A stretch of DNA of 33,168 bases from a virus. Positions 11,809 to 25,455 of the stretch are shown in pieces; within the stretch, counting starts at the first letter, position 1, and each line of letters opens with the position of its first letter. The translations under genes were made by a program, and so were the position numbers. The stretch covers positions 1 to 33,168 of IMG/VR virus record IMGVR_UViG_3300020195_000108. The stretch is one strand, 5' to 3'. The notes under the pieces are model-generated. The model did no database searches and was not told the origin of the DNA. It was given only the letters and a program-made list of their open reading frames with translations.

Positions 11809-12422
11809 GCTACTATCTCGGTATCGACCCGGACCTGCACCACGCCGGGATCGCGTTGCTCAACTCGAAGAGTGGCGAAGGCAGGCTTTGGGTTGCGAAA
11901 GCTCCTAGCAAGCTGAAGGGAGAGGAGGCCAACGTAGCGATGGCGCAGTCCCTACGACATATCGTGCTTGTCTTGGGCTGGGTCGATTCGGTCGATTCGG
12001 TCGATTCGGTCGATTCGGTCGAAATTGTCATAGAGTCCCAGAAGATCCGTCCGGGAACTTCCGTGAATCCTCAAGACATCGTGATGCTTGCTCAAGCTGC
12101 GGGGGTCGCTGTGGGAGTCCTTTCTGGCTTGTCTGACAACATCTCCCTGGTACAGCCGCAGGACTGGAAGGGATCCATCCCCAAGGAGGCCCACCACGCA
12201 GTCATCCGCGAGCACTACCGGATCGAGAAGGGGCAGCTTGGGCCGCACGAGAGCCACTTGCTCGATGCCGTGGGTCTCGCAGCCTGGGGCTGGCTCAGAG
12301 ACTCACTACCGAGGTCTCCCGATCGAAACCCTCAGTCAAGGCTTCTAGGTAGTGTGCTATCGAAACAGCGACTAGCTCGTCTACCACGCCTGAGTCTAGA
12401 ACTTGTTGCCACGCTCGGGTGA
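11805..12422 (+). CDS. RuvC-like Holliday junction resolvase
   Basis: The protein starts MSYYLGIDPDLHHAGIAL, the first strand of an RNase H fold with catalytic Asp8. A second acidic strand, EIVIESQKI, and a late HLLDAVGLAAWG with acidic Asp complete the RuvC-type pattern. It probably resolves branched or concatemeric phage DNA before packaging. Residues 63-75 are a VDS tandem run from a 9-bp DNA repeat. The conserved fold ends near LRDSL; the last 40 or so residues overlap the antisense gene at 12295 and look like accidental extension. ATG 11805 overlaps the upstream stop. Confidence 0.8.
   Translation: MSYYLGIDPDLHHAGIALLNSKSGEGRLWVAKAPSKLKGEEANVAMAQSLRHIVLVLGWVDSVDSVDSVDSVEIVIESQKIRPGTSVNPQDIVMLAQAAGVAVGVLSGLSDNISLVQPQDWKGSIPKEAHHAVIREHYRIEKGQLGPHESHLLDAVGLAAWGWLRDSLPRSPDRNPQSRLLGSVLSKQRLARLPRLSLELVATLG
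11982..12017 (+). repeat. Four perfect 9-bp tandem repeats (GTCGATTCG)
   Basis: Four identical copies of GTCGATTCG, followed by a partial fifth, encode VDS repeated four times in the resolvase, between the first and second catalytic strands. Length change keeps the frame. Replication slippage is the likely origin. Confidence 0.92.
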
Positions 12423-12855
12423 AGAAGAACTCGCCAGCGACCGGACCAACGCTGCGGGTGACCACCATGATCGGTGGGGCACCCGCCTTCTTTCGCACTC
12501 GGTTCTCCTCGCGGAAGAGCTTGTATTCGTCCGTAGATAGCGATTTGCGATCTCCGCGCGTCTTCGGGTAGTTCGTACCGTAGCTCGTGCGCGGATCGTC
12601 CCGACGATCAGGGAAGAAGATCATGTATTTCCCTGCCGGGAGGTCGATCCGCTTTCGTCCATCGTGGACGAACTTGGCCCAGAAGTAGGGCAGCTTCAGC
12701 GTGATCTTCGCCACGCCTCCAGGGACCCCGATGTCCACTTCGAACGTCAGCTCGCGCCGCAGCGTCGCGGAGCCCATGAGCCCCGTGGACTCCAACTGCA
12801 CGATGTCCCCAATCGCCTTGTAGGTGGTCTCCTTGACGCGATCGAGCAGGGTCAT
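12295..12855 (-). CDS. Possible HK97 gp10-like head-tail completion protein
   Basis: A 186-residue ORF on the minus strand starts 2 bases after the portal stop, so it is cotranscribed with the portal. The middle contains LPYFWAKFVHDGRKR, which recalls the conserved YAxxVExGT element of HK97 gp10 and lambda gpZ-type proteins, and the late GEFFFTRAWQQVL resembles their terminal helix (RPFLxPA). An insertion rich in Asp, Arg and Lys separates them. Such proteins sit at the head-tail interface. The match is weak and rests on motif shape and position beside the portal. Its 3' end overlaps the convergent resolvase gene by 128 bases. Confidence 0.4.
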   Translation of the reverse strand: MTLLDRVKETTYKAIGDIVQLESTGLMGSATLRRELTFEVDIGVPGGVAKITLKLPYFWAKFVHDGRKRIDLPAGKYMIFFPDRRDDPRTSYGTNYPKTRGDRKSLSTDEYKLFREENRVRKKAGAPPIMVVTRSVGPVAGEFFFTRAWQQVLDSGVVDELVAVSIAHYLEALTEGFDRETSVVSL

Positions 12856-12857
12856 CC

Positions 12858-14258
12858 TCAGTCCTTCACGCCCGCTGAGAGGTCGCGCCCGCTGGCCGAG
12901 GCAGCGGGCGTCCGCATCCGGCTCATCGTGTCCATCTCCTTGAGCCCTGGGGCAGCGCCGGTCGTCTGCGCGCCCATGCCGAGCGGGATCTCCTCGGTGA
13001 CTTTCTTGAACACGAAGTCAGCCTTCTTGAGCCCGAGGCCGCTGTTGTGCTCCTTGTTGCCCAGGGTCGAGCCGAGGATCGCAGTGAACGTGACTTGCTC
13101 AGGACCGATCACGAGCACCTGGAAGGCCAGGAGCGCGTTCGGCAGCTCGTTGACCGCACCGAGCTTGCCAGGGATCTGAATGCCTGCCAGGAGCGGGGGC
13201 GTCCTGTGCGCGGTCACGATGTCGAGCGAGAGCGCCTCGCGCAGATCCGAGAGCCCGGCGCTGCCTGCGTCCTCCATCGCGAGCTTCTCGACTTGGATCT
13301 TGGCAAGCTCTGAATCGACGTTGATCGCCATCGTCTTGTGCTGGTTACCCAAGCCGATCGTGTTCTGGATCCCGTTCTCGATCTTCTCCCACGTCTTGCC
13401 ATCGATCTTCGCGCCCGAGATGAACAGGATGAACTCAGGCACGCCTCGGTTGAGGAAGAAGTCGTACCGCTCCTGCGTCATCATCTGCACCAGCTCGATG
13501 CTGGCAACCGCCGAGAGCCAGTCAGGGAAGCCGTACCAGCGCGACATCGACGTGCGGCGCGCGAAGTGGATGATCTCGCTGCGCTCCGAAGGTGTGCCGT
13601 AGCTGTTGTAGACGCTTCGATAGTCAACGGTGGTGTCGGGTACGCCGTTGTTGTCAACCGATTCGCCGTTCAAGCGTGCGAGGAATTCTTCCAGCTCCCC
13701 GTAAGGAGCCATGACCCTCGGGGACGATCCTTCGCCTCCGCTCTCTCCTACGATGTAGTGGCGGCGGTACTCGATGTCCTCGATGCACACCTTCACCGTT
13801 GCAGCCGGAACGTGGTGGAGGCCCTTGACCTTGCCGCCATCGTCACGAACGACTTCCATATAACCGTTGCCTACCTGCCAGTAATCCTCAGCAACGCTGT
13901 CCAGCACTTCCATGAACGTGCTGTCGCACAACGGATCCAACAGGTCGGTAGCTTTGTCCGTCGTGAATCCGAGTCCGGTCATCGCTCTCGACTTCGCTTC
14001 GATGCACGTCGAGTGGTGTACGTTCTGGTTCTTGAACGCGATGGCCGCAGCCATGTTGAAGGGGTGCTCCTTCACTCCAAGGTTCACGCCCTGGTCACTC
14101 GCCTGATCGGGCCGGTCCTCGGGAGAGTGCATCTTGAAGAGCACCTCGGCCCAAGTCTTCATTCCCTCCTTGGCAGTCGAATCGAAGATGTCGCGGTGCT
14201 CGCTGTGCCCTCTTACGACCCGGACCTCAGTGGTTTCCGTGCTACCCGTATCACTCAT
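12858..14258 (-). CDS. Phage portal protein
   Basis: The 466-residue protein forms the dodecameric DNA gate at the capsid vertex. The central segment IIHFARRTSMSRWYGFPDWLSAV is the hallmark of portal proteins of the PBSX/HK97-like groups (His-Phe...Tyr-Gly-x-Pro), followed by the wing and clip regions (ERYDFFLNRGVPEFILFISG) and a long helix-rich tail. The start has AGGAAG (complement of 14265-14270) a few bases upstream. It is on the minus strand although the protease and capsid genes beside it are on the plus strand, which is unusual for a head module. The C-terminus is Ala/Ser/Gly rich and probably disordered. Confidence 0.85.
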   Translation of the reverse strand: MSDTGSTETTEVRVVRGHSEHRDIFDSTAKEGMKTWAEVLFKMHSPEDRPDQASDQGVNLGVKEHPFNMAAAIAFKNQNVHHSTCIEAKSRAMTGLGFTTDKATDLLDPLCDSTFMEVLDSVAEDYWQVGNGYMEVVRDDGGKVKGLHHVPAATVKVCIEDIEYRRHYIVGESGGEGSSPRVMAPYGELEEFLARLNGESVDNNGVPDTTVDYRSVYNSYGTPSERSEIIHFARRTSMSRWYGFPDWLSAVASIELVQMMTQERYDFFLNRGVPEFILFISGAKIDGKTWEKIENGIQNTIGLGNQHKTMAINVDSELAKIQVEKLAMEDAGSAGLSDLREALSLDIVTAHRTPPLLAGIQIPGKLGAVNELPNALLAFQVLVIGPEQVTFTAILGSTLGNKEHNSGLGLKKADFVFKKVTEEIPLGMGAQTTGAAPGLKEMDTMSRMRTPAASASGRDLSAGVKD

Positions 14259-18253: not shown

Positions 18254-19114
18254 ATGCCCGGACTCTCAAGTGGACGAAACGACCCCCGCGACCACATCCT
18301 CGGTCGGGGGGTGCTCTACTTCTCTCAGCACGACATCAACAGCCATCCGACTTCGTATCGAGACCTCGGCAACGCCACGGCGTTCTCGATCACGATGGAC
18401 GCGACGGACCTGGAGCACTTCAGTTCTCGTCGGGGCCTCGCTCTGGCTGACCGCAAGGTCCAACTGACCAAGAGCGCCAACCTCGCGTTCACGCTCGATG
18501 AGTGGAACTCCGACAACATCGCGCTCTGGATGTCGGGCGCGATCTCGTCAGTCTCGGGCTACAGCGGCGTAGCCGTCGCCGCAGCCCTCAACGGCAACAC
18601 GACCGCGAACCCGTCTGTCGGTCGTTGGTACGACCTCGTGAAGACCATTGCCTCGCCTTTCCCTGCCACCCCGTTCGATGACCGCATCTACGACCTCGGC
18701 GTTGTCACCGTCACCTCCACCACTCCGGCTACCTCAGTCGAGGGAACCACCTATCTCGTTGACTACAAGATGGGTCGTATCATGTTCCTGGAGACAACGG
18801 TTCTCACGGGCATTGCCGTCGCTGCGAACGTTGCTGGCGTGGCTCCGTACACCGAAGTCCAGATGTACCAGGGTGTCAACCTCACGGGCAGCCTGAAGTT
18901 CATCCAGGTCAACCCCGCCAACTCCGATCAGCTCATGGAGTACGAGATCCACTCGACGCAGCTCATCTCGACTGGCGAGGCGCAGCTCATCGGAGACGGT
19001 TGGTCCGAGATGCAGTTCACTGGCGGCATCTCGAAGAATCCGGCGCAGTCCGCGGCAAGCCCGTACCTGACCGTCCGCACCTTCCCGCGTGCCCAAGGCT
19101 CCGTGGCTGACTGA
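18254..19114 (+). CDS. Major tail tube protein
   Basis: The 286-residue protein forms the hexameric tail tube. The start region reads GRGVLYFSQHDINSHPTSYR then DLGNATAFSITMDATDLEHF followed by SSRRG, a pattern I recognise from siphophage tube proteins (LYF...RDxGN...F.I.....LEHxSSR). A hydrophobic beta-rich middle follows. A ribosome site of GGAG lies at 18240-18243 with a 10-base A/C-rich spacer. A long hairpin follows within 40 bases of the stop and may lower expression of downstream tail genes, which are needed in far fewer copies. Confidence 0.85.
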   Translation: MPGLSSGRNDPRDHILGRGVLYFSQHDINSHPTSYRDLGNATAFSITMDATDLEHFSSRRGLALADRKVQLTKSANLAFTLDEWNSDNIALWMSGAISSVSGYSGVAVAAALNGNTTANPSVGRWYDLVKTIASPFPATPFDDRIYDLGVVTVTSTTPATSVEGTTYLVDYKMGRIMFLETTVLTGIAVAANVAGVAPYTEVQMYQGVNLTGSLKFIQVNPANSDQLMEYEIHSTQLISTGEAQLIGDGWSEMQFTGGISKNPAQSAASPYLTVRTFPRAQGSVAD

Positions 19115-19205: not shown

Positions 19206-19844
19206 ATGGCACGAAGTCTAGCATTCCTGAAAAGCAAGCCGACACCCGTTACGGTCAACGGGGAGATCATCAACTTCTATCCTCTGAGCCTCAACGCAGT
19301 CCATCTCCTGAAGGGATTCGTCGGCCCGGTATCTGGCGCGATCAGCACCCTCTTCGCCAAGACCGACACCGACACTGGCAGGCAGTTCGATGAGTTCGCC
19401 AGCAAGGAAGAGGGGATGGCTTCGAGCAAGACGAAGATCGAACCCGTCTCGGTTGACATGGCACGCTTCCGCAGCCAACAGCGCGAGGCAGCCATCAAGA
19501 CCCTGATGGACACGCTGACCGATCCTGGTCGTCACAGGGAACTCATGCTCATCATCACGGACTCGATGCGCGACGAGTTCCCGGTGAAGCCGAACGACAA
19601 CCAGCTCGCGGACTTCATGCTGAACACGGATGTCCCGTCCGCGATCGAACTCTTCAAGGGCGTGCTCAAGGCCAACGGAGGGCTCTTTGACCCTTTGGTG
19701 TCGAGGGTGACGGAGGCCATGAAGGACCAGACCTCGCCGCCGTCGCCGCTGCTTCAATTCCCGGACTCCCAAAGCCGAGCCGAAACGGCAGGCACAAACC
19801 AAAGCCGAAGCGGGAACACCGAACCCCAGAGCAACGCGAGCTAG
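19206..19844 (+). CDS. Tail assembly chaperone, short form (gpG-like)
   Basis: This 212-residue product lies between the tube and tape measure genes and would coat the tape measure during tail assembly. The first part (SKPTPVTVNGEIINFYPLSL) is the beta-rich beginning usual for these chaperones. From about residue 165 it is a low-complexity Ser/Pro/Gln tail. Base 19206 has AAGGAG 12 bases upstream. Within it, a CCCTTTG heptamer (19691-19697) would shift a fraction of ribosomes by -1 into the downstream frame. The unshifted product ends at TAG 19842-19844. Confidence 0.75.
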   Translation: MARSLAFLKSKPTPVTVNGEIINFYPLSLNAVHLLKGFVGPVSGAISTLFAKTDTDTGRQFDEFASKEEGMASSKTKIEPVSVDMARFRSQQREAAIKTLMDTLTDPGRHRELMLIITDSMRDEFPVKPNDNQLADFMLNTDVPSAIELFKGVLKANGGLFDPLVSRVTEAMKDQTSPPSPLLQFPDSQSRAETAGTNQSRSGNTEPQSNAS

Positions 19845-20122
19845 AATACTGGCGGTCACTTCAGTCAGCGATCGTCTACGCAGTAACGAAAGGATTCCAA
19901 CTCGATACCTTGATGGCGATGGACCTCCCGAGCTTCAACAGCCTCCTGAGCACGATCCACAAGGTAACCGTGGCCGAGGCAAGCCGAGACGCTTGGACCT
20001 CTCTCATCGCTGCGGCGGTCGATCAGAAGGCAATGAAGTCACACATCAAACAGATTGTTGGACCTGAACAAGTGGCTGACGGTGCTGAAGTGGCTGCGAA
20101 ACTGAACGAGATGGGCAAATGA
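19206..20122 (+). CDS. Tail assembly chaperone, long form by -1 frameshift (gpGT-like)
   Basis: Zero-frame reading to 19697 (164 codons) followed by the -1 frame from 19697 to TGA 20120-20122 gives about 305 residues. The -1 frame has no stop after TGA 19688-19690, is Pro/Arg/Lys rich at first, and then has a well-formed helical segment RTPEQRELEYWRSLQSAIVY followed by a domain ending AAKLNEMGK. No start codon with a convincing ribosome site explains that frame; a TTG at 19910 would drop the clearly coding upstream part. Lambda G/GT and most long-tailed phages use this layout. The tape measure start overlaps its stop. Confidence 0.75.
19691..19697 (+). promoter_or_regulatory. Slippery heptamer for -1 frameshift
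   Basis: The heptamer C CCT TTG is aligned to the chaperone frame, so tRNAs on CCT and TTG can re-pair with CCC and TTT. It follows the X XXY YYZ rule and begins on the first base after the -1 frame's last stop (19688-19690), which is the earliest place where shifting could give the long product. A short CGAGG/CCTCG stem (19702-19706 with 19732-19736) may lie downstream. Confidence 0.7.
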
Positions 20123-23100
20123 CAAGCGGCGGGTTTGAATACATCATCGAGATTCGCGACCAGTTCGCGAAGCCGATCGCTGAGTTCCAAGCCGCCATTG
20201 CAGAAGCCAAGAAGACAGTAGCCGCGCTCAAGAAGGAACTGGGCGGCCTTGGTGACGCTTCGAAGGAAGCCAAGGCCGCTCTCGGCGGCAACGCGACGGA
20301 GATCAAGGCCGCTACCAAGGCGCAAGAGGACTACGCCGCTGCCATCGGGAAGGCGACTGCCAAGCAGCGCGCCCAGATGACCGAGGACCAGAGGGTCGAG
20401 GACTCCCTCAGCAAGAAGATCGAGCGACGCGCACACGCTGCCCGAGTAGAGGAGCAGGCAGCCGAACAGGGCATCAGCCTCTCCAAGAAGCGCGTCGTCG
20501 CCGCCAAGGAAGAGGCGACGGTCGAGGATCGGGTCAACGCGATCATCGCGCGCCGGGCGGAGCTAGAGGAGACCAACGCCGCGCTGCGCGGGCGCGGCTT
20601 CGATCCCAAGGGCGCGGACACTCGCCAGCGGGTCGAGGAGATCATTGCCGCACGGAAGGACCTCCAGGACACCAACACCGAGCTGCGTAGCCGTGGGGTC
20701 GATGCCAAAGGCGCGACCACCGAGGCGCGCGTCAACGAGATCCTCGCACGTCGGAACGAGCTGCTCGCGCAGAACAACCTGCTGGAGCAGAGGGGATTCG
20801 ATCCGAGAGGCAACGCGCTTCTCTCCGAGAAGGCGACGATCCAGAAGCGGATCAACGACATCATCGCTCGGCAGGCCCAGCTCCTAGCAGTCAATGCTGG
20901 TCTCAAGGCACAGGGGTTCGACCCTCGTGGCAACGCACTTCTCTCTGAAGCTGGGACGATCCAGAAGCGCGTCAACGACATCATCGCCCGACAGAACCAA
21001 CTTCTTGCGGTCAATGAGCGCCTGAAGCGGCAGGGATTCGACCCGCGCGGGAATGCGCTCCTCTCCGAAGAAGCGACGATCCAGAAGAGGATCAACGACA
21101 TCATCGCGCGGCAGACCAAACTGCGTGCGATCAACGCTGGGCTCAAGGCGCAGGGACTCAATCCGCAGGGCAACAAGTTCCTGACGTCCCAGGAGATAGG
21201 TGCCGATCAAGCCGCTGCCAAGTTCCGGAGCCTCCAGATCCGGAAGTTCCGCCAAGAAGCCGAGAGGGCCAACCCGGCGCTGGCGCAACTGCGTCGCGAC
21301 CTGGGCTTGACCGAATCGGCTGCCAACCGCATCAGCTTCACCTTCCGTCGCCTCTTCGGGATCATGGCCGCGTTCACCGTGGCACGGCTGGCATTCGCGA
21401 AGCTCAAGGAAGCGATCGCCAGCTCGGTCGCGTTCAACGCCACGATCGAGACCTCAGCCCTGGGCATCGCTTCCCTGGTAGCCGCCACGGGGCAGATCCG
21501 AACCGCCACGGGGCGCGCGGCAGACGCTACCGAGGGTTGGGGGCTCGCCCAGGCAGAAGCGCGCAGGCAGCTCGTACTGCTCCGCAAGGATGCGCTGACG
21601 ACAGCAGCGACCTTCCCAGAACTCATCAGCGCGTTCCAGACCGCGATCGGTCCGGGTCTCTCTGCGGGCCTGAATCTCGACGAGGTACGGAAGTTCGCAT
21701 CCGTGATCTCGAAGGCGGCTTCGGCGCTGGGCGTGGAGCAAGTCCAGCTCGCAGAGGAGATCCGCTCGATCCTCCAGGGCACGATCACCAAGCGCAACAC
21801 CAGGATCGCCACTTCGCTTGGGATCTCGAACGATGACATCGCCCGAGCGAAGGAGATGGGCGTCCTGTTCGAGTTCCTGGAGACGCGCTTCCAGGCGTTC
21901 AACAAGGCGAGCGAGGACGGTGCCAAGACCTTCACGGTCCTGCTCTCGAACGCCAAGGATGCGATCTCGAACCTTCTGGGACTGAGCTTCACGGGGCTCT
22001 TCAACGAGCTGAAGACGTTCCTGACGGTCATCAACCGAAGCATCGTCAACATCGAAGATGCCTCGATCAATCCGGCGCTGGTGAAAGCGTTCTCGGCCAT
22101 CGGGGAAGTGCTGTCGCTGGCGGTCAGCGAGTCCACGAAGATCATCACCACGCTCTCGGCTGGTGGTGCGGAGAGCACCTTCGAGGGCATCGCGATCATC
22201 CTGAAAGGCGCAGTCATCCTCGCTTCAGACCTGATCCAAGGGATCCTGAAGGGCGCTCGCATCGCGGCAGCGATCCTCTCCCCGATCATCGCCGTGGCAC
22301 GCGCCATCGCAGACGTGCTCGGCCCTACGGTCAACCAGATCCTCATCTGGGGCGTGGCGCTGACGGTGGCGTTCAAGCTCGTGCTGGCTTCGACGATCGG
22401 CCTGTACGGCTATCTGGTGAAGTCGGTAGTCCAGCTCGGCCTGATGCAACTCCTCTCGCTGGGGCTTGCGCGCAACATCTCCGCTGCTGATGCCTCAGTC
22501 GGGAAGATGACCGCTGGTACGTTCACCCTGAGCACGTTGTGGACCGCGATTAGTGCGAAGATCGCAACCGCGTTTACCGCTGTCAAGGCGTTCCTCGCCG
22601 TCTGGGGGCTCACGCTCCTGGGTGTGGCTGCGATCGTCCTGGAGATCAAGCTGCTTGGGGACGAGCTGGAACGCGCGAGCGGCAAGACTGCCTCCCTCGG
22701 TGCGCTGCTAAAGGCGACGATCTATGGCGTAGGAGAAGTTATCCTGTTCGTCGGCAGGACCATCCTCGACTTCTTCGAGACATCCATCCGAACGGTTATC
22801 TCTCACATACTCTCGTTTCAGTTGTCTGTGGGCAAGCTGCTCTCCAGGCTTGCTGACATCGCAGGGAAGATTCCTGGAGGGGAAGTAGCGGCAGCCCTGC
22901 TAAAAGCCAGGATTGCTCAGGTGTCGAAAGCGTTCGAGGACTTCCAGACCAAGGTTGACGCGACCGATGGGTTCAGCGGCTTTGCTGACAGGGCCGATGA
23001 GAACTTCACGAGGGTCGGGCAACGTACCGTAGACTACTACTCGGAGCTGGCTGACGGAGAAGCCGAGGCAGCCGCACGGACGAACTTCTGGGACAACATC

Positions 23101-25455
23101 CCGGCGCTGATCTCCAGCTCCTCGCGCGAGATGGAGTCGATGGTCGCAGGAACACAGAAGCTCAAGGACGAGATTACGGGTGCGAACGAGGAGCTGATCT
23201 CCGGGATCGCCACCCTTCGTGCCCAGGGTGCGATCCAGCAACAGGTGAAGCTCATCACCGAAGCGCGCAGCCGCGTCGAGAAGGAGTCGAAGGTCTTCCT
23301 CGCCGATCGAGTGCAAGCCGAACGCGACCTCGCGCGGGCACAGAAAGACCGCCTGGAGGCCGAGGAGAAGATCGCCAAGGCGACCAAGGAACAGAGGGCA
23401 CAGATAACGAACGTCCTGGATGTCTTCCAGGAGATCGATCGCCTGCGAGGACAGCTAGGTGAAGCCAAGTCGAAGCAAGGGCTCGCGAAAAGCCTCTTCG
23501 ACAGTGGCAAGGGCTCCCTCGGAGAGGTCTCTGCCGCCAACGCGCGCGTGGTCGAGCTGGAGGAGCTGCTAGCCCAGACTGCCGAGAAGGGCAAGGGCAT
23601 CGGCGCTTCCAAGGAGACCGAGGATCTCGCGCTCGCACTGAACGACGCGCTGCGTCGTCGCGAAGACGCCATCCGCCGCAACAACGAGGCGCTGGAGAAC
23701 CAGAAGGAGCTGAGCAAGGAAATCTTCGATCTCTACGAGACCAAGATCGCCCTGGTCGGCGCGCTGGAATTCGCGGAGTCCAAGAAGCGCCAGCGCGAGA
23801 CCAAGATCCAGTTCGACGCAGCGAAGCGCTTGCTCGGTGTCTCCGAGTCGCGTTCCCCGATCGACAGCGCACTCGCGCAGGCAGACAACGAAGTCGCGGC
23901 TGAGCGTGAGAAGCTCGTGCTCCTCCAGGAACAGAACCTCGCCCAGCAGAACGCCCTACGCTTCGTGATCGAGCGTACGAAGGACACGCAGCTCCAGGTC
24001 GCGCTGACGACCCAGTTCACCAAGCTGACTGCCGAAGGTGCTGACGCCGAGGCGCTGGCCGCTGCCAACGTCGCACTCGCCTTGGCTGGCAAGAGGGTCA
24101 TCGTCCGCGACCAAACCGACGCCAACCGCCAAGCTGCGCTTGCTACGAAGGCAGAGCTGGGGGACATGCGGGCGCAGATCGACGCCGAAGGCAAGCTCCT
24201 CGAAGCCAAGCAGAAGGGCACGGCCTTCGACCAACAACGGGTCGAGCTGGAGACGCAGATCGCTCTCTCGAAGATCAAGGACAAGGCCATCCAGGACGGC
24301 TTCCGCGAAGAGGAACAGTCGCTCAACATCCAACTGACGGCCACCAGAGACTCCGACGAACAGGCGAAGATCGAGCAACAACTGACCGATCTCCGCAGCA
24401 AGTCGCTCCTCACCCTCATCCTCCAGAACATCCAGATCGAGAAGCTCAAGGAGAACCTGCGCCAGCTCGGCATCCAGGAGCAGAACCGCAACCGCGAGCT
24501 GTCGGTTTCGACGGCTGCGAGCCGCGATCAGTTCGACGTCGAGCAGGGAGTGGACCGCGAAGCCATCCAACTCACGGCTGTCTCGAACGCACTGAAGCAG
24601 GAGCAAACGATCCTCGACTCGATCCTCGCGCTCCACACGGCGAGCACGGAGGAGATCGCGGCTCAGATCGAGAAGATCCGACAGCTCCAGATCGAACTCG
24701 ACAAGACCAAAGAGAAGATAGAATCGCCCATCAGCTCGGGACTCCTGGACGGTATGAGACGATTCGTCCTCGAAGCGCCGACGATGTTCGAAGCTGCTTC
24801 GGACATCATGCTCAACACTCTCAAGGGCATCACTGATGTCCTTGCCGATTCGCTGACTGGCCTCTTTGATCCGAACAACACTAAGACCCTGAAGGAACGT
24901 CTAGGTCAGCTTTTCCTCGACATCGGCAACCAGATCTTCAAGAAAATCTTCGAGCGACTGATTGCAGATCTGATCTCCAAATTCTCCTTCAGCACCTCCA
25001 GCAGCTTCATCGGACCTCCCGAGGTCGCAGCCAACTCGGGCGGCCTCATCGGAGCCAACTCGGGTGGTCAGATCCCGCGATACTTCGCCTCGGGCGGCTT
25101 GAGGGGCTCTCGCAAACGCCACCCGAAGGACACGGTGCCTGCCTTCCTGACCCCTGGTGAGTTCGTGATCCGCGAACCCGTGGTGAGGGGTCTAGGTACG
25201 GAGTTCTTCGAGGGTCTCAACAGCATGTCCCTGGGCAACGCAGGCGTGCGCGACATCGGCAAGATGGGATTCTCCGGCCCCAGGGTCACACCCCAACGCG
25301 CGGCCCCTGCCGCCGCCGCACAGGCGCAGGCAGCGCCCCTGCGCGCGTACCTCGTCCCATCCGAGGATTCGATGGAGCAACTCCTGGCACAGGGGGATGG
25401 CGCTATGCAACGCTACCTCAGTGAGCGAGGATACCGCCCGGCATGGCGCTCCTGA
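20119..25455 (+). CDS. Tail tape measure protein
   Basis: The 1778-residue protein sets tail length and lies between the chaperone and tail-tip genes. Residues about 139-360 are coiled-coil tandem repeats, followed by a tape-measure core near 395-440 (RLFGIMAAFTVARLAFAKL). Hydrophobic segments lie around 740-790 and 826-850, usual for proteins that enter the host membrane. Long charged helices fill about 1000-1600. The end has GGLIGANSGG and KDTVPAFLTPGEFVIREPVV, the recurrent Gly-rich tape-measure tail signature. By the rough lambda rule of about 0.15 nm per residue, the tail would be near 265 nm. ATG 20119 overlaps the chaperone stop. Confidence 0.92.
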   Translation: MTSGGFEYIIEIRDQFAKPIAEFQAAIAEAKKTVAALKKELGGLGDASKEAKAALGGNATEIKAATKAQEDYAAAIGKATAKQRAQMTEDQRVEDSLSKKIERRAHAARVEEQAAEQGISLSKKRVVAAKEEATVEDRVNAIIARRAELEETNAALRGRGFDPKGADTRQRVEEIIAARKDLQDTNTELRSRGVDAKGATTEARVNEILARRNELLAQNNLLEQRGFDPRGNALLSEKATIQKRINDIIARQAQLLAVNAGLKAQGFDPRGNALLSEAGTIQKRVNDIIARQNQLLAVNERLKRQGFDPRGNALLSEEATIQKRINDIIARQTKLRAINAGLKAQGLNPQGNKFLTSQEIGADQAAAKFRSLQIRKFRQEAERANPALAQLRRDLGLTESAANRISFTFRRLFGIMAAFTVARLAFAKLKEAIASSVAFNATIETSALGIASLVAATGQIRTATGRAADATEGWGLAQAEARRQLVLLRKDALTTAATFPELISAFQTAIGPGLSAGLNLDEVRKFASVISKAASALGVEQVQLAEEIRSILQGTITKRNTRIATSLGISNDDIARAKEMGVLFEFLETRFQAFNKASEDGAKTFTVLLSNAKDAISNLLGLSFTGLFNELKTFLTVINRSIVNIEDASINPALVKAFSAIGEVLSLAVSESTKIITTLSAGGAESTFEGIAIILKGAVILASDLIQGILKGARIAAAILSPIIAVARAIADVLGPTVNQILIWGVALTVAFKLVLASTIGLYGYLVKSVVQLGLMQLLSLGLARNISAADASVGKMTAGTFTLSTLWTAISAKIATAFTAVKAFLAVWGLTLLGVAAIVLEIKLLGDELERASGKTASLGALLKATIYGVGEVILFVGRTILDFFETSIRTVISHILSFQLSVGKLLSRLADIAGKIPGGEVAAALLKARIAQVSKAFEDFQTKVDATDGFSGFADRADENFTRVGQRTVDYYSELADGEAEAAARTNFWDNIPALISSSSREMESMVAGTQKLKDEITGANEELISGIATLRAQGAIQQQVKLITEARSRVEKESKVFLADRVQAERDLARAQKDRLEAEEKIAKATKEQRAQITNVLDVFQEIDRLRGQLGEAKSKQGLAKSLFDSGKGSLGEVSAANARVVELEELLAQTAEKGKGIGASKETEDLALALNDALRRREDAIRRNNEALENQKELSKEIFDLYETKIALVGALEFAESKKRQRETKIQFDAAKRLLGVSESRSPIDSALAQADNEVAAEREKLVLLQEQNLAQQNALRFVIERTKDTQLQVALTTQFTKLTAEGADAEALAAANVALALAGKRVIVRDQTDANRQAALATKAELGDMRAQIDAEGKLLEAKQKGTAFDQQRVELETQIALSKIKDKAIQDGFREEEQSLNIQLTATRDSDEQAKIEQQLTDLRSKSLLTLILQNIQIEKLKENLRQLGIQEQNRNRELSVSTAASRDQFDVEQGVDREAIQLTAVSNALKQEQTILDSILALHTASTEEIAAQIEKIRQLQIELDKTKEKIESPISSGLLDGMRRFVLEAPTMFEAASDIMLNTLKGITDVLADSLTGLFDPNNTKTLKERLGQLFLDIGNQIFKKIFERLIADLISKFSFSTSSSFIGPPEVAANSGGLIGANSGGQIPRYFASGGLRGSRKRHPKDTVPAFLTPGEFVIREPVVRGLGTEFFEGLNSMSLGNAGVRDIGKMGFSGPRVTPQRAAPAAAAQAQAAPLRAYLVPSEDSMEQLLAQGDGAMQRYLSERGYRPAWRS
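20533..21210 (+). repeat. Tandem coiled-coil repeats, 99-bp then 120-bp units
   Basis: Six units start at 20533, 20632, 20731, 20851, 20971 and 21091, each with V/I-N-D/E-I-I-A-R. The first two are 33 residues; the next three are 40 residues; the sixth is degenerate at its end. The 40-residue form has an extra seven residues, one heptad, around GNALLSE. DNA identity is highest among the last three full units, suggesting recent duplication. Confidence 0.9.

Follow-up and report, generated by a model that had tools for sequence, protein, structure and literature searches.

The tail chaperone locus

The window, a 33,168-nt stretch of viral DNA (positions 1 to 33,168 of IMG/VR record IMGVR_UViG_3300020195_000108), carries two overlapping open reading frames (ORFs), G and T, flanked by a major tail protein gene upstream and a tape measure gene downstream. 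The features of this locus are as follows.

18254 to 19114, plus strand: major tail (tube) protein gene with an Ig-like domain (phrog_807, E 1.8e-40)
19206 to 19844, plus strand: G-like gene, tail assembly chaperone, frame 0 (called from the ORF, its neighbors, and homologues in 17 related contigs)
19677 to 19682, plus strand: Shine-Dalgarno (SD)-like GGAGGG, candidate stimulator, 8 nt upstream of the heptamer (anti-SD duplex, -10.0 kcal/mol)
19691 to 19697, plus strand: putative slippery heptamer C_CCT_TTG, in phase and kept as C_CCT_TTN in 15 lineages
19691 to 20122, plus strand: T-like frame (-1), 143 codons plus stop (called from codon use after 19845, 45% identity to the T of relative L115, and conserved motifs)
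19706 to 19747, plus strand: predicted stem-loop, weak candidate stimulator, 8 nt downstream of the heptamer
20119 to 25455, plus strand: tail tape measure gene (phrog_24, E 2.1e-5)

The G ORF runs from an ATG at 19206 to a TAG at 19842-19844 and encodes 212 amino acids. The stop codon of T overlaps the ATG of the tape measure gene (ATGA), and the capsid protein of the window is of the Phage_cap_E type. AlphaFold confidence was too low for a fold search with either G (pLDDT 41) or T (pLDDT 57). At the 5' end of the tape measure gene (20480-21170), the translation contains near-tandem repeats of the form R-G-F-D-P-[RK]-G ... I-x-x-I-I-A-R, and the DNA contains a 44-bp match (20509-20552 versus 21067-21110).

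The heptamer and its conservation

A preliminary description of this DNA had placed CCCTTTG in the chaperone frame as C CCT TTG, directly after the last stop of a -1 frame that then stays open to 20122. The frame assignment and the open -1 frame were both confirmed: the heptamer lies within ORF 19206-19844 and is read as GAC CCT TTG, with X at codon position 3; immediately before it, the -1 frame is closed by a TGA (19688-19690), after which no stop occurs in that frame until TGA 20120-20122. The position relative to the last -1 stop is likewise correct (a gap of 0 nt), but the significance attached to this abutment did not hold up. The gap ranges from 3 to 498 nt in relatives; thus, the exact placement has no visible function, and the abutment is a coincidence.

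The overlap between the slip site and the G stop spans 154 nt. CCCTTTG is the sole in-phase XXXYYYZ heptamer anywhere in G, and the only other heptamer that the overlap contains (CCCAAAG at 19768) is not in phase. The chance expectation is 0.05 in-phase heptamers for the 51 codons of the overlap and 0.19 for G as a whole. The other genes of the window contain nine in 9,875 codons, with no CCCTTT among them.

Relatives were retrieved by scanning IMG/VR with a two-member and then a five-member capsid alignment. With near-identical contigs counted once, 18 independent lineages of one uncultured phage group had the region intact (the window and 17 others). C_CCT_TTN occurs at aligned codons in 15 of the 18 (the window and 14 others), in the context N-x-x-x-[FLA]-[DG]-P-[LF], and in these 15 lineages the -1 ORF continues for 72 to 114 codons beyond the G stop. 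This comparison, proposed earlier as a check on the heptamer, strongly favors a frameshift. The bases CCCTTT are invariant across the 15 lineages, while Z is G (window, L124, L135, and L136), A (L117, L118, L125, L126, L128, and L134), T (L115 and L129), or C (L133, L145, and L146), with the encoded residue switching between Leu and Phe. A fixed set of six re-pairing bases followed by a free seventh is the pattern expected of tandem -1 slippage.

The codons of the slip site are disfavored in the genomes of the group, where CCT accounts for 14.5% of Pro codons, TTA and TTG for 10% of Leu codons (TTA, 4/702), and TTT for 12% of Phe codons. Synonymous choice alone would produce the conserved site with a probability of ∼1e-29 if the 15 lineages are treated as independent, a figure that shared ancestry raises. 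Despite this ancestry, the low identities of the relatives to the G of the window (24 to 41%) indicate that third codon positions have had time to change.

The three remaining lineages carry, slightly downstream and instead of CCCTTT, the heptamers GGGAAAC (L138), GGGAAAG (L140), and GGGAAAA (L143). In a capsid tree with many weak branches, L138 and L140 group together beside L146 (CCCTTTC), with L143 elsewhere. Two lineages contain both types of site in phase, with CCCTTTA followed 9 nt downstream by GGGAAAG and the same -1 frame entered from either (L118:11774-11789 and L125:10915-10930); the second site could do the work in these phages. L118 and L125 occupy different places in the same weakly resolved tree.

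Translation of the -1 frame

The predicted translation through the heptamer comprises 164 plus 141 residues, matching the 305-residue G/GT fusion that had been forecast. The predicted peptide across the G/T junction reads ANGGLFDPLGVEGDGG..., and the predicted tryptic peptide over it is ANGGLFDPLGVEGDGGHEGPDLAAVAAASIPGLPKPSR. The earlier statement that the -1 frame lacks a good start of its own also agrees with our analysis: the earliest ATG, GTG, or TTG in the window is TTG 19910, located 66 nt beyond the G stop, and both conserved residues and coding signal occur before it. Two adjacent columns of the T alignment are Arg in 15/18 and 16/18 lineages. In every one of the 18 lineages, these R-R columns lie 27 to 132 nt ahead of the G stop, and in 17 they precede every -1 start codon; a Trp conserved in 15/18 lineages is found near the G stop in the -1 frame. 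In the window, the R-R columns are 54 nt before the G stop and the Trp is 6 nt after it. The 63 nt preceding the first start codon (19847-19909) also display -1-frame codon use (log-likelihood ratio [LLR], 12.3), with only 10 of 3,688 wrong-frame windows scoring equally well. Conserved -1 residues and coding-type codon use ahead of any start codon argue for T as part of a fusion and against a gene of its own, and we predict that T is produced only as the 305-residue G-T protein.

For T to be a separate gene, translation would have to start inside the -1 frame, coupled to the G stop, with the heptamer being incidental. There is precedent for such an arrangement, as the two chaperone ORFs of some Microbacterium phages in cluster EA are reported to be expressed separately, with no evident frameshift (PMC7302621), and TTG 19910 is joined in frame by ATG 19913. 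However, the R-R pair, the Trp, and the coding signal would all be left ahead of the first start codon, and the conservation of the heptamer would be left unexplained. We regard separate expression as very unlikely.

Within the overlap (19698-19842), codon statistics prefer frame 0 to the -1 frame, as expected where most ribosomes remain in frame 0, and give no independent location of the slip point. The best switch point by these statistics falls at ∼19732-19864, which could be taken to indicate a -1 shift at another, noncanonical place in the 154-nt overlap. Such statistics are biased, however, because frame 0 is also translated in the overlap. Furthermore, the overlap offers no second in-phase XXXYYYZ, and conservation across lineages is confined to the CCCTTT stretch, making a shift elsewhere equally improbable.

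A frameshift introduced by assembly or sequencing error, or a decayed gene, is a general possibility for metagenomic contigs, but the probability here is close to negligible: a 39-kb sister contig is identical in this region, although it differs from the window by ∼20 mismatches and a small number of gaps across 12.6 kb, and 17 other lineages share the two-frame layout. Transcriptional slippage was set aside, as the overlap contains no long homopolymer run, and a +1 shift was rejected, as T lies in the -1 frame.

Relation to known chaperones and candidate stimulators

The frameshift mechanism and the G/T gene pair are known from lambda and most long-tailed phages. The lambda gpG/gpGT system (G_GGA_AAG) resembles that of the window in its slot between the tail-tube and tape measure genes, in the -1 direction of the shift, and in yielding two products with a common N-terminal part; the T part of lambda, at ∼140 residues, is similar in length to that of the window. 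In contrast to lambda, the window has the heptamer C_CCU_UUG and a 154-nt overlap from slip site to G stop, with no detectable sequence match between the two systems.

To place the locus among its relatives, an alignment of the tail-tube protein was used to fetch 94 loci from IMG/VR and bacterial genomes, with a usable G-like ORF present at 84 of them. At 77/84 of these loci with a related tail-tube gene, the -1 frame extends for 45 codons or more beyond the G stop, and most of the 77 contain an in-phase heptamer 54 to 141 nt ahead of that stop. The heptamers across the survey were AAAAAAG (n = 29), AAAAAAA (n = 13), AAAAAAC (n = 9), GGGAAAC (n = 8), TTTTTTG (n = 5), and others. In-phase CCCTTT was found among the 84 loci only in the near-identical sister contig of the window; the initial remark had called CCCTTTG a less usual choice than the GGGAAAG of lambda.

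For phages Chi, Suzuki, JC01, and FoX4, this frameshift is present in the annotation. Casjensviridae (Chi and its kin) share with the window related tail-tube proteins (only 24 to 28% identity) and capsid proteins (only 21 to 25% identity), and they likewise carry a heptamer before the G stop, mostly by 54 to 141 nt. The heptamers themselves differ, being A_AAA_AAN, G_GGA_AAN, C_CCA_AAA, or T_TTT_TTG in Casjensviridae and C_CCU_UUG in the window; T_TTT_TTG of Marinobacter phage PS6 has the same A-site codon as the window. A profile comparison of G and T with their Chi-like counterparts detected no significant homology and performed no better than shuffled sequences. A MAFFT alignment that placed the slip sites of the window and of Chi-like phages together was forced and was not used as evidence.

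Neither G nor T significantly matched a described protein family; the weak PHROG matches were to phrog_10551 (E 0.016) and, in one relative, phrog_1442 (E 0.0059). Searches of cultured phages at the DNA and protein levels likewise returned nothing significant for G or T and no cultured relative with this chaperone, and single-sequence scans of IMG/VR with the G, T, tail-tube, and tape measure proteins retrieved only the near-identical sister contig.

The slot between the tail-tube and tape measure genes, together with the -1 layout at 77/84 related loci, points to a chaperone frameshift of the lambda G/GT type. Judged from sequence comparison, a programmed -1 ribosomal frameshift at C_CCT_TTG is very probably how T is expressed. 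Most ribosomes would stay in frame 0 and produce the 212-residue chaperone G. In a minority, tRNA-Pro on CCU and tRNA-Leu on UUG would move one base backward to pair with CCC and UUU, and translation would continue in the -1 frame to give the 305-residue fusion, with its basic linker and helical T domain. If lambda is a guide, G would coat the tape measure protein and T would recruit the tail-tube protein. We infer the slippage itself, its efficiency, and the function of both products. In lambda, the G and GT products are made in a ratio of 30:1 (PMC5009743).

In Escherichia coli reporter constructs, as opposed to the phage chaperone gene considered here, C_CC.U_UU.A,.G, and.U gave >0.10% frameshifting without stimulators, and C_CC.U_UU.C gave high-level frameshifting; the first three occur in E. 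coli genes less often than expected (Sharma et al. 2014, PMC4066793). The same study sought SD-like stimulators 6 to 17 nt upstream. The GGAGGG of the window probably stimulates the slip; only 1.6% of in-frame G positions pair as well with the anti-SD sequence. Over the 15 lineages, the SD-like position scores above average (Fisher 0.0003, on the assumption that lineages are independent). The four strongest SD-like elements belong to the four lineages with Z = G (-10.0 to -11.8 kcal/mol versus -9.5 to +1.2 in the others), all of which use the Gly codon GGG, while the remaining Gly-bearing lineages use GGT or GGC. This association (exact one-sided p 0.0007) holds for four window definitions, although the comparison is post hoc and ignores the tree, with three of the four Z = G lineages falling in one weakly supported group. 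For these reasons, we offer only as a hypothesis what the association suggests, namely, that a strong SD-like element compensates for a Z = G slip site. The fold of the downstream stem-loop (-22.4 kcal/mol) depends on the folded length, with a z score of -1.78 for 51 nt and +0.46 for 73 nt, and no robust pattern of downstream hairpins was found across lineages.

Our literature searches for CCCTTTN in phage chaperones, or for a phage group relying on C_CCU_UUN, found no report. According to the authors of PRFect, the chaperone sites annotated in actinophages include every base at each of the positions X, Y, and Z (PMC10885494); thus, CCCTTT may also occur in those phages. Frameshifting of this kind is well known and the slip sequence unusual; what is new is the predicted group-wide C_CCU_UUN site, which is absent from the related Chi-like phages surveyed. 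With 15 lineages, and not one genome, in support, C_CCU_UUN would enlarge the slippery set known for phage tail chaperones, and annotation that seeks just A_AAA_AAG or G_GGA_AAG would miss the T half of such chaperones.

A possible, though tentative, history is that the chaperone frameshift of the group operates on C_CCU_UUN with Z drifting freely and that the UUG lineages gained an SD-like stimulator (GGAGGG, AAGGGGG, or CAGGGGG) that holds the G:GT ratio. Some branches may then have moved the site a few codons to G_GGA_AAN, with the phages that carry both CCCTTTA and GGGAAAG as possible intermediates. If true, the group represents a natural experiment on recoding-site turnover under fixed output. 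The four Z versions, with their different upstream elements, provide ready constructs for studying the balance of slip strength and stimulator for one protein ratio.

Elsewhere in the window, a portal-like gene (named from its position and size) and a small neighbor lie on the minus strand at 12295-14258, flanked by plus-strand genes for replication on one side and for capsid and tail on the other. Two ORFs close to the beginning of the record (60-302 and about 1640-1770) share the peptide SELRGGHQSRSQRVSVLWARSPERPAVSAR, which reflects either a local duplication or, at this end of the contig, an effect of assembly.
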